From an uncultured Acidimicrobiia bacterium (lineage in GTDB: Bacteria > Actinomycetota > Acidimicrobiia > Spongiisociales > JAENVV01), in contig CAJQPD010000087.1 in the NCBI GenBank assembly GCA_905480085.1, forward strand, positions 1-6,252: a stretch of DNA of 6,252 bases, read 5' to 3'. The notes under the pieces are model-generated. The model worked only from the letters and a program-made list of their open reading frames with translations. It was not told where the DNA came from and did not search any database. The position numbers and the translations under genes were made by a program. Positions 2,212 through 6,034 of this stretch are shown here, one piece after another. The stretch's first letter is position 1, and each line of letters opens with the position of its first letter.

Positions 2212-4020
2212 TCAGGGGATTTGGAGGGCTTCTTCGGCGGCGGTGAGATCCTGCTCGCCGGACAGCACGCCGGCGAAGAGGTCACCGTGCGTTGCGAGGC
2301 GGTCCCAGACATTGGCCATCGTGAAGTCACCGTTCTTGAGATCATCCAACTCGTCCCACTTGATCGGGATTGAGACCGGAGCCCCAGGACGCGGACGAAT
2401 CGAGTAGACGGATGCGATGGTCTGGCCTGTGGCATTGCGAAACGCATCGATGAATACCCGATTGCCACGCTTCGGTTTGTCCCATTCCATGGTGATATCA
2501 GCCGGATTGGCAGCCGCCATCAGCATCCCGACGGCGTACACGAAGTTCCGGACCCGTTCCTGAGTATGCCCCTCGGCCAACGGGACATACACATGAATCC
2601 CTCGCGACCCTGACAACTTCGGGTAGCCGACCAGGCCGAGCTGACCAAGCAGCGTCTCCAACAGGCGGGCCGTGTCCACCACCTGCTGCCAGGTCACGTC
2701 ACCTGCGGGGTCCAGGTCGAACACCGCCCAATCAGGCGTATCGGGGGTGGTCCATCGAGAGTGGAAAGGATGCAGCTCGATACAACCCATGTTGGCGAAC
2801 CACATGAGTGATTCCCGGTTGGCCGCCAACAGGAAATCAATGTCACCGCCCATCGATTCAGACGACACAAGACCGGTCGCCATCCAATCCGGCTGATGCC
2901 CAGGAGCCCGCTTCTCGTAAAACGATTGCCCGGCTATTCCGTTCGGGTACCTGCTCATCGAGATCGGACGATCGGCCAGATGAGGAAGCAGTAACGGAGC
3001 AACCGAGGCGTAGTACTGGATCATGTCCCCTTTCGTGAACTGGCCAGGAAACATTTCCTTGTCAACGTTCGAAACCGATAAGGGCCGCCGGGTCCGCAGG
3101 ACTCGCCACCGATCCGCTTCCTTGACGACGTTGACCTGACGCGGAACCCCTGCCATATGCAATCCGACCGGGCGCCCTTCGTCAGACCCGCGAACTCTGA
3201 CGGTGGCTGCGACCGCTTCAGCGTAAATCTCATCGTGGCTCTCTCGATCTCGCGATTCGGAGATCACGACCATGTCAATGCCACGATTCCAGGCCGCCTC
3301 GATCAGGGGCTCAATGCGAAGGGTCCCCGTGCCGTACCGAACGTGCCGGATCTCGCCGTGCTCACCGAACTCGTTGTCCGAGAACTGGCACTGAAGCGGA
3401 TCGGTCTTCCACTCCGGGAAGGAATCAATCACGAATCCAAGAACCTGATCGAACGCTTCCACCGAGGTGAGCGCTCCTCTGGTGGTGGCATGCACATGGG
3501 CCCAGTCGATCAGCGGATAGACAAATGGGAACTCCTCGGCGAGCAACGCTATGTCGCCGATCGAACCGAAGTTGTTGTCGTTGCCCGACGTTTCGAATCC
3601 GAGCGCCACGCCGAGGTGAGCAATCTTCGGCGACAGATAATCGAGCCGCCGCCGGACCAGGTCCATCGTCGCCGCCGGCTCACGATCGCCATGGACTCCG
3701 ATGTGGGCGCAGATGATCCGGGCTCCGAGGGCTCGGCCAAGTTTCATCGAATGCTCCAGCGCCGATACCGGCAGCTTGGCCTTTTCGTCGTCGGCTCCGG
3801 TCAGAGTGGCAAAGTAGGGAGCGTGAAGCGAGAGGTCGATACCTCGCTCAGCGGCAGCTTTCCCGAAAGCAACACAACGTTTCTCTTTCCAGGGAAAGTC
3901 TTTCGTGAACCCGAGTTCGTACGCCGAGTGCCCGCGAGAGACCAGCTCATCCAAGAAGAGTGCATCGTCCACCCCTTCGGGCGGCAATCCGGACATCCCG
4001 AAGCGCAACATGCCCGCCAT
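2212..4020 (-). CDS. Endonuclease IV-like TIM barrel fused to LigD-type primase-polymerase domain
   Basis: This 602-residue protein reads through without interruption. Residues about 1-275 resemble the endonuclease IV (AP endonuclease 2-like) barrel: LSLHAPY with His66, His106, Glu143, IDWAH with Asp172/His175, His226 and Glu255 fall where Nfo has metal ligands. The position of Nfo His216 appears to be Gln212, and Asp229 is not conserved in place, so the metal site is altered. Residues about 290-602 are a LigD polymerase (archaeo-eukaryotic primase family): NVDKEMFPGQFTKGDMIQYY, RPISMSRYPNG, FYEKRAPGHQPDW, catalytic FDLDP (Asp435, Asp437), SGSRGIHVYVPL (His476) and VFIDAFRN (Asp525). No phosphoesterase or ligase domain is present. 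Known LigD-Pol enzymes fill short gaps, often with ribonucleotides; a coupled abasic-site cleavage and gap-filling role is my inference. An in-frame TGA three codons upstream limits the start to Met1 or Met4; neither has a strong Shine-Dalgarno. Confidence 0.9.
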   Translation of the reverse strand: MAGMLRFGMSGLPPEGVDDALFLDELVSRGHSAYELGFTKDFPWKEKRCVAFGKAAAERGIDLSLHAPYFATLTGADDEKAKLPVSALEHSMKLGRALGARIICAHIGVHGDREPAATMDLVRRRLDYLSPKIAHLGVALGFETSGNDNNFGSIGDIALLAEEFPFVYPLIDWAHVHATTRGALTSVEAFDQVLGFVIDSFPEWKTDPLQCQFSDNEFGEHGEIRHVRYGTGTLRIEPLIEAAWNRGIDMVVISESRDRESHDEIYAEAVAATVRVRGSDEGRPVGLHMAGVPRQVNVVKEADRWRVLRTRRPLSVSNVDKEMFPGQFTKGDMIQYYASVAPLLLPHLADRPISMSRYPNGIAGQSFYEKRAPGHQPDWMATGLVSSESMGGDIDFLLAANRESLMWFANMGCIELHPFHSRWTTPDTPDWAVFDLDPAGDVTWQQVVDTARLLETLLGQLGLVGYPKLSGSRGIHVYVPLAEGHTQERVRNFVYAVGMLMAAANPADITMEWDKPKRGNRVFIDAFRNATGQTIASVYSIRPRPGAPVSIPIKWDELDDLKNGDFTMANVWDRLATHGDLFAGVLSGEQDLTAAEEALQIP

Positions 4021-4663: not shown

Positions 4664-6034
4664 ATGTTGCGGTCTCTGTCCAGCATCCTCATCGGAGCCT
4701 TGTTGCTCGTTGCCTGCTCGACCGACCTACCGGCGGCCTCCCCGGCCGCTCCAACGGTGTCGCAGCCAACCACCACTTCCTCCCCAGCCCCGGTCAGCCC
4801 GAGCACCACGTTGGCGAGTCCAACGACAACGAGCACCACCACCAACGTTGATGACTCGGTCACCCCTGATATTGATTCCGCCGTTCCCGAGAAGCATCTC
4901 GAGAACTACTTGGCGGCGCTGGCTGCCGGAGCCTATGAGCAGGCCGGGTTCCCGGCTACGAATGCCGGTACTGCCTTCGGCGACAACGAGAACATCGCCG
5001 CAGCAGACTATTTGGGAACGGCTTGCGAGCCGGATCTCTGCAACGGGCCATATAGGATCGAGCCGGGCGACCCGTTTATCCAATACGACGGAATCGCCCC
5101 ACCTCGCTGGAACTTCTCAGTCACCCACGAACCGTCCGGAGAGGCCACGACGATGACGGTCGGCATGTTTGAGGGCCAGTTCGTCATAGCCGATCTTCCG
5201 CCGCTCGTGGAGTCACCCCAGCCCGACGACCTCCTGACCCGGTTGTTCGGCAGCGACCAACCCGACTACGCGGTCGTCGAACGATTCGATGCGTTCGAAA
5301 TCCAACTTGCTGGCACCAACACCTGGGTGACCAATTGGTTCGCTGACACCGCCTGGTTCGTGGAGGGTGACGTGGTAGTCAGTTATGGGGATACCAACGG
5401 CGTCCACGTGACCCCGCTTGCAGCGCCACAGGAATCGCTCATCTACGAATGCCCGGACATCATCGTTAGGGAGGGGCGGACGCTGGTGTTGGACCTTTGC
5501 GACCCGATGGCACCTGGCCTGTACGGATTCGGAACTGCTGATCGGTATCCCTTTCTCATCGACCCGCTGGAGATCGAGCCCTATGAGAGTGGCGGGGTGA
5601 GTTATCTCGAACGAGGCGGAACTGCGGTCGTGACGCTCGGCGACGCCGAAGGAAACACCAGCGAACTGATCAGTACAACCGGCGCCGACCTACTGAGAGG
5701 CGATTACGCCGGATACCGGACCCTATCTGCCGACGGGAGCCGGTTCATCTACACCGACCACAGCCAGGGCAGCGGCACGTACAACCACTTCTGGAGTCCA
5801 GTCGTCGTTGTGCGTACAACGGACACGGGCGCTGAACTCCTCCGACTCGTCCTCGACGGTCCGGTCACCTGTCTCGAATCGGACGGCCTCTGGGTGCTCG
5901 CCTGCGAAGGTGATGTCGACCGCATGCTCGAAGGCGATCCCGGCATCATTGCACTGGTCGCCTACAACGTCGAAACCGGCGAGACGAACCGGATCGCAAC
6001 TGGTACCCGGGTGTTCCTCCCGTCGAAACCGTAA
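4664..6034 (+). CDS. Secreted lipoprotein of unknown function with three likely disulfide pairs
   Basis: The 456-residue protein begins with a lipoprotein signal peptide: MLRSLSSILIGALL, a hydrophobic core, then the lipobox LVAC with Cys18 as the lipidated residue. It should therefore be exported and anchored to the outer face of the membrane. Residues about 19-65 are a flexible Ala/Pro/Ser/Thr linker. The folded part may start with a small alpha/beta domain (about 70-180, HLENYLAALAAGAYEQAG, possibly NTF2-like). It continues with beta-rich, repeat-like stretches such as YRTLSADGSRFIYTDHS and VAYNVETGETNRIATGT, which recall propeller blades. Six further cysteines (121, 126, 263, 279, 403, 414) fall in three close pairs, consistent with disulfides outside the cell. 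I do not recognise the family; both domain guesses are weak. ATG4664 is set by the signal peptide. It is divergent from the acetyltransferase gene. Confidence 0.88.
   Translation: MLRSLSSILIGALLLVACSTDLPAASPAAPTVSQPTTTSSPAPVSPSTTLASPTTTSTTTNVDDSVTPDIDSAVPEKHLENYLAALAAGAYEQAGFPATNAGTAFGDNENIAAADYLGTACEPDLCNGPYRIEPGDPFIQYDGIAPPRWNFSVTHEPSGEATTMTVGMFEGQFVIADLPPLVESPQPDDLLTRLFGSDQPDYAVVERFDAFEIQLAGTNTWVTNWFADTAWFVEGDVVVSYGDTNGVHVTPLAAPQESLIYECPDIIVREGRTLVLDLCDPMAPGLYGFGTADRYPFLIDPLEIEPYESGGVSYLERGGTAVVTLGDAEGNTSELISTTGADLLRGDYAGYRTLSADGSRFIYTDHSQGSGTYNHFWSPVVVVRTTDTGAELLRLVLDGPVTCLESDGLWVLACEGDVDRMLEGDPGIIALVAYNVETGETNRIATGTRVFLPSKP

Follow-up and report, generated by a model that had tools for sequence, protein, structure and literature searches.

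An endonuclease IV-type barrel fused to a LigD-type polymerase in an order of Acidimicrobiia: a probable component of Ku-dependent end joining

Bacterial end joining is usually described as the work of Ku and LigD, a protein in which a 3'-phosphoesterase (PE) acts as the end-cleaning domain. We analyzed a window of 6,252 nucleotides (the whole of positions 1 to 6,252 of contig CAJQPD010000087.1, assembly GCA_905480085.1) from an uncultured Acidimicrobiia bacterium of the order Spongiisociales, whose genome is in 393 contigs and 68% complete. The window carries a gene that joins an endonuclease IV (EndoIV)-type barrel to a LigD-type polymerase. We describe the two domains, their distribution relative to Ku, and the role that this fusion may play in repair.

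The fusion gene and its spread

The complete gene lies on the minus strand at 2212..4020: 602 codons plus a stop, with the ATG at 4020 and the stop at 2214-2212, in one frame that is kept in relatives. An EndoIV-type TIM barrel (residues about 1-275; 3196..4020) is followed by a linker (about 276-312; 3085..3195) and by a LigD-type primase-polymerase domain, or Pol (about 313-602; 2215..3084). Both domains pass their Pfam cut-offs in the same frame: residues 24-271 match AP_endonuc_2 (85.8 bits, cut-off 31.1; E 4.9e-24), and residues 329-582 match LigD_Prim-Pol (PF21686; 302 bits, cut-off 27.4; E 4.8e-90). In NCBIfam, the protein passes the model of the LigD polymerase domain (TIGR02778; 239.3 bits, cut-off 214.7) and stays under the cut-off of the whole-LigD model (TIGR02776; 244.5 bits, cut-off 373.2). 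Pfam finds neither a ligase nor a PE domain in the 602 residues; since the fusion has no ligase domain, sealing must be performed by a separate protein. A first-pass annotation, made from the sequence letters, had reported this frame (giving no strand), its two domains, catalytic aspartates at 435, 437, and 525, and the absence of a ligase; all of these hold.

The fusion is real and conserved. Both domains are present in 120/120 homologues, the best 120 of 5531 proteins over threshold. Of 59 genomes (58 relatives and the window's own), 46 carry the fusion: 42, including the window's own, give one match across both domains, and 4 have copies that are broken or split and are counted as present (G005, G038, G039, and G056). 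Identity ranges from 50 to 96% in the 41 other genomes with a match spanning both domains. A scan of a genome collection yielded 64 loci; for 40, the record title contains Acidimicrobiia, Acidimicrobiales, or Acidimicrobiaceae. Relative to four same-genus genomes, dN/dS is 0.02-0.05 in the barrel and in the polymerase, with synonymous sites near saturation in two of the four comparisons; the linker is less constrained and is the fastest evolving part. An assembly chimera, which the first-pass annotation had named as a way in which its reading could fail, is ruled out by the two-domain homologues, the presence in multiple genomes, the low dN/dS of both halves, and the existence of a second, more distant group outside the class (below).

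The first-pass annotation could not tell how widespread the architecture is. The fusion is spread over one order of the class and at least two families outside it. Among the matches listed in 197 class genomes that are at least 90% complete (the window's own, less complete genome excepted), full-length fusions occur only in the window's order, and the 119 genomes outside this order give no full-length match; these matches reach about E 2e-51, such that weaker barrel pieces could escape. We refer to the window's group as group A (171 aligned fusions). A scan of 396 phylum genomes revealed a second group, group B (94 aligned), that is 40-45% identical and belongs to two families outside the class: f81 (G304, G323, G343, G362, and G440) and f78 (G294 and G382). 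Contig ends truncate the copies of G323 and G382, and that of G440 has an in-frame stop. At least 95 group B proteins (P0179-P0273) are among the best 120 of the protein search, where the boundary of the group is a drop from 63 to 47% identity. A single origin of groups A and B is neither rejected (approximately unbiased [AU] test, p 0.333) nor demonstrated.

Several copies depart from the common form. In G005, the fusion is split: one gene encodes the barrel and another, about 390 kb away, the polymerase (L118 and L082). This genome has Ku and gives no match to the ligase model TIGR02779, and its polymerase adjoins a luciferase-like gene resembling, by eye, one neighbor of the fusion in genus g7. 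Two loci, L143 and L154 (in G144 and G166), encode a fusion-clade polymerase that comes with no barrel match; their lineage lacks Ku. Copies in L080 and G440:C47 each contain an in-frame stop, either real or a sequencing error. Finally, public records label the fusion "non-homologous end-joining DNA ligase", though it has no ligase domain; annotation does not reliably tell whether a genome has LigD.

Active sites of the barrel and the polymerase

The barrel has the TIM-barrel fold of EndoIV. In what we take to be the numbering of the nine trinuclear metal ligands of E. coli Nfo, seven are identical in the window's protein, D229 is replaced by E223, and H216 by Gln. Ligands H66, H106, E143, D172, and H175 are kept in 171/171 group A fusions, and E223, H226, and E255 in 170/171. 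The remaining position lies in Q210-C-Q212 (3385..3393), which takes the place of the H-x-H that holds Nfo His216; H-x-H is found in group B, where the full set is kept in 94/94 barrels, and in stand-alone relatives. Of two DNA-contacting residues of Nfo, Tyr72 corresponds to Y69, which 170/171 group A proteins retain. The position of Nfo Asn75 (Thr72 in the window's protein; 3805..3807) is not Asn in any of 265 fusions, 171 of group A and 94 of group B. In Nfo, Asn75 contacts the complementary strand, and the residue at this position is needed for duplex cleavage at abasic sites in an archaeal EndoIV (PMC6341776).

A sugar-phosphate isomerase or epimerase acting on a small molecule, fused to the polymerase by accident, would have a compatible fold. 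This explanation is highly improbable and is rejected on the metal ligands: the set H66, H106, H175, E223, and H226 matches EndoIV. In addition, EndoIV or APN1 fills 14 of the top 15 rows of a structural comparison, and among the closest stand-alone relatives, those named by their source are called endonuclease IV, deoxyribonuclease IV, or TIM barrel protein.

The barrel might instead have ceased to be a nuclease and serve as a DNA- or Ku-binding scaffold, leaving the protein as an end-joining polymerase alone. The change from His to Gln in the Nfo His216 region of most group A proteins, the loss of the Asn75 position, and the lineage of G144 and G166, with its polymerase lacking a barrel match, all point this way. 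They are set against the retention or conservative change of eight of nine ligand positions in 170-171 of 171 proteins, the complete H-x-H set of group B, the barrel's low dN/dS, and its survival as a separate gene in G005. We regard a mere scaffold as quite unlikely.

The polymerase retains its catalytic residues. The motif D435-x-D437 (2710..2718) is conserved in 170/171 group A and 94/94 group B fusions, each aspartate in 170 of the 171, and D525 (2446..2448) in 171/171 and 94/94. N318, K321, and K330, which we take from work on LigD-Pol positions to be the Asn, Lys, and Lys of the 5'-phosphate pocket, are kept in 169, 170, and 170 of the 171, respectively. The position of H476, presumably the motif II His, is Gln in 94/94 group B proteins, whose barrels keep all His ligands; group A shows the opposite pattern.

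By kinship the polymerase is of the LigD type. In a quick 85-row tree, groups A and B share a clade with 13 of the phylum's LigD polymerases (SH-aLRT 97), 10 of which have Ku in the same fetched stretch, and the clade of the mycobacterial gap-filling polymerase Prim-PolC excludes the fusions (SH-aLRT 100). A joint clade of fusions and Prim-PolC is marginally rejected (AU p 0.045). In a structural alignment the fusion ends at Msm residue 308, before Loop 3 of Prim-PolC, which spans Msm residues 313-333 (PMC7442782). The four fusion genomes examined for this (G002, G009, G033, and G054) have, apart from the fusion, a Prim-PolC-clade polymerase encoded next to a LigC-type ligase. The first-pass annotation had drawn an analogy to Prim-PolC; the separate clade, the early end, and these separate Prim-PolC and LigC genes speak against it, and an orthologue of Prim-PolC is ruled out by the clade, the AU test, and the end before the Loop 3 region.

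Distribution of the fusion relative to Ku, ligase, and PE

The presence of the fusion follows that of Ku. Among 77 genomes of the order that are at least 90% complete, 53 have both, 4 the fusion alone, 6 Ku alone, and 14 neither (Fisher p 9.6e-8); the fusion counts include copies in pieces, owing to a contig end or a broken frame (G038, G056, G146, G168, G188, and G208). At the genus level, with the own genome included and the mixed genus g17 scored as having Ku, the corresponding counts are 26/3/4/7 (p 0.0015). Five of the six genomes with Ku alone (G027, G034, G140, G161, and G177) encode PE and Pol in a single LigD frame of 833-897 residues beside Ku; the ligase part of this frame is established in G027 and G034, and the other three are known by PE and Pol. 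When these five are omitted, the table becomes 53/4/1/14. Thus, a Ku-bearing genome without a long PE-and-Pol LigD frame carries the fusion in 53/54 cases, and all five genomes with such a LigD are without it. The same link appears in the set of 59 genomes (41/5/4/9, p 8e-5), where a control comparison of the fusion with other LigD-type polymerases gives 36/10/8/5 (p 0.28). Outside the class, 7/7 fusion genomes have Ku. In eight Ku-bearing relatives, four of which are less than 90% complete, we found no LigD-type polymerase besides that of the fusion, which is split in G005 (G000, G005, G006, G013, G030, G045, G056, and G058). Two Ku genes each are present in the fusion genomes G015, G028, G042, G146, and G168, and on contig C7 of G028 a span of about 10 kb holds Ku, a ligase, and a LigD-type polymerase of a third kind.

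Shared ancestry was considered through an rpoB tree of 76 rows, as 4/80 genomes gave no rpoB match. The fusion changes 8 times on this tree. In 7 independent pairs, Ku changes in the same direction in about 4-5 on average and in the opposite direction in 0.0; taken alone, this phylogeny-aware comparison is suggestive.

The ligase is encoded apart from the fusion. The window's own genome has Ku, a 302-residue ligase core without Pol or PE (by Pfam), and a separate Nfo, the three genes whose status the first-pass annotation had left to be established. Its Ku locus carries Ku, the ligase core, and, between them, a MinD/ParA-type ATPase gene (L106:5186-6091, minus strand). Of its Ku-bearing relatives, 25/45 have a ligase match in a frame of 164-470 residues at most 5 kb from Ku; the absence of Pol and PE was judged there by frame length and the lack of such matches, and the 25 do not count G027 and G034, in which the ligase beside Ku is that of LigD. 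In group B, a ligase core is beside Ku in 3/8 short Ku stretches fetched (L253-L255; two confirmed by Pfam). No PE match was found in 43/53 genomes of the order with both fusion and Ku; PE occurs in 15 genomes of the order, the five with classical LigD and ten of the 53.

The conserved neighbors of the fusion gene include HisA-type, aldehyde dehydrogenase, rhodanese, acyltransferase, and chorismate-binding proteins and three without a family; no Ku, ligase, or glycosylase was found by Pfam among nine representatives of single-linkage clusters. A 5'-3' exonuclease gene (PF02739, PF01367) a few kb from the fusion in 11/64 named loci (e.g., L044:9766-10644) is the sole conserved neighbor that could bear on repair. 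The window itself contains three other genes, all on the plus strand. The first (161-1054) encodes a 297-residue relative of rhodanese-type 3-mercaptopyruvate sulfurtransferase with two rhodanese stretches (NF008557, 162.6 bits, under the cut-off of 250). The second (1042-2052) overlaps it by 13 bases and encodes a 336-residue DUF6183 protein. The third (4664-6034) encodes a 456-residue protein with a lipoprotein-like start and no family over cut-off in Pfam or NCBIfam.

Base excision was the role proposed by the first-pass annotation, in which a single protein opens or cleans a lesion and fills the gap. In its Ku-independent form, the barrel would cut abasic sites or clean 3' blocks at single-strand breaks, the polymerase would fill a one-nucleotide gap, and LigA or LigC would seal. 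EndoIV chemistry, the conserved Y69, and the Ku-less genomes that keep the fusion are in its favor, as is Bacillus subtilis, where LigD, which has 5'-dRP lyase activity, and Nfo are linked in spore survival (PMC4770248). We nonetheless consider such an enzyme unlikely: the fusion tracks Ku rather than other LigD-type polymerases, its LigD-type polymerase stops before Loop 3, the Asn75 position is lost in 265/265 fusions, and other genes are at hand, with another LigD-type polymerase in 44/59 genomes and a separate match to the nfo model in 53/59 (10 over the curated cut-off), such that the fusion barrel is rarely the sole EndoIV-type enzyme. The protein may still serve base excision beside or instead of non-homologous end joining (NHEJ), as in B. 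subtilis, where cooperation of LigD with Nfo has been proposed (PMC4770248). Because presence follows Ku and the polymerase is kin to those of LigD, the base-excision reading is revised toward end joining: cleaning followed by filling stands as the best guess, and the protein is most likely the polymerase and end-cleaning arm of NHEJ, with the barrel standing in for PE.

A proposed role in end joining, and comparison with known systems

On balance, we think it probable that the fusion provides Ku-dependent end joining with both its polymerase and its 3'-end cleaning, operating with a ligase encoded by a separate gene. In the proposed sequence of events, Ku would bind the broken DNA ends; the barrel would strip 3'-phosphates, 3'-sugar fragments, or damaged 3' nucleotides, a task that falls to PE in classical LigD; the polymerase would bridge and fill the ends, probably with ribonucleotides; and an ATP-dependent ligase core encoded on its own, often in the vicinity of Ku, would seal them. 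We infer the physical partnership with Ku and the activity and substrate of the barrel. Precedents exist for the parts: EndoIV removes 3' blocks (PMC6341776, PMC5663958), PE makes 3'-OH ends (PMC8656161), and split NHEJ domains are already known (PMC1378119, PMC4538821). The simplest account is that these bacteria would carry their LigD polymerase in detached form, as the fusion, with the EndoIV-like barrel replacing PE in end cleaning.

A number of observations weigh against this role. In G201, Ku is present and neither the fusion nor a classical LigD was found. Conversely, the fusion is kept in four Ku-less genomes that are at least 90% complete (G010, G017, G164, and G194) and in three less complete ones (G025, G044, and G050), and G010 and G017 give no TIGR02779-type ligase match either. 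The phylogeny-aware sign test of the Ku link does not reach significance (median p 0.0625-0.125), and the NHEJ-side placement of the fusion has no more than 80/61 support in a smaller, careful tree. Searches with phmmer found neither Ku nor ligase in the flanks fetched around fusion loci of groups A and B; the group A flanks were L001-L083 and L085, of varied lengths, and ligase matches came only from the non-fusion loci L084 and L086. Within the barrel, Gln occupies position 212 in 163/171 and position 210 in 128/171 group A proteins, and the score on the nfo model (TIGR00587) is 17.6 bits, far under the cut-off of 129.65, which the genome's separate Nfo likewise misses at 106.4 bits. Archaeal EndoIV homologues generally include one active member per species (PMC6341776). 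Finally, ten genomes with fusion and Ku also carry PE, and in G382 the fusion coexists with a full LigD; the replacement is hence not strict.

A broader evolutionary scenario can be put forward tentatively from these comparisons. LigD may have been rebuilt in part of Actinomycetota: ligase and polymerase would have been split, PE dropped, and an EndoIV-type nuclease of archaeal affinity joined to the polymerase, then retuned through loss of Asn75 and an altered metal site from duplex abasic incision to 3'-end cleaning of double-strand breaks. This would constitute a third bacterial end-joining architecture, in addition to classical LigD and to the split set adjacent to Ku. We did not meet an EndoIV-polymerase fusion in the titles and abstract openings listed by our literature searches (subscription papers and preprints fell outside this scope), and the available portions of PMC10140301, PMC4538821, PMC5862659, PMC8656161, and PMC10273834 do not mention one. 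Most Ku-bearing genomes of the sampled order have no classical LigD frame or PE match, and have the fusion instead. If the proposed role is correct, the fusion supplies the missing polymerase of these bacteria and builds endonuclease IV chemistry into end joining, raising the question of whether an EndoIV-type barrel can do the job of PE.

Four known systems provide points of comparison. The fusion resembles LigD in having a polymerase of the same clade, in co-occurring with Ku, and in its predicted end cleaning and filling; it differs in having no ligase or PE domain, in its N-terminal EndoIV-type barrel, and in a gene that was not found beside Ku in the flanks fetched. With the stand-alone Ku-adjacent NHEJ polymerases of other orders of the class and of the Streptomyces type (PMC1378119), it shares the polymerase domain, a separate ligase, and Ku in the genome, whereas the 16 such polymerases examined have no barrel and form their own clade (100/100). 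Unlike mycobacterial Prim-PolC with LigC, which fills gaps in base excision, it belongs to another clade, lacks the Loop 3 region, and is not beside LigC. With endonuclease IV (Nfo, the archaeal relatives being closest), it has in common the TIM barrel and seven of nine identical metal ligands, and it is set apart by its polymerase, the change of D229 to Glu, Gln in the H216 region of most group A proteins, the lost Asn75, and a score far under the cut-off of the nfo model.
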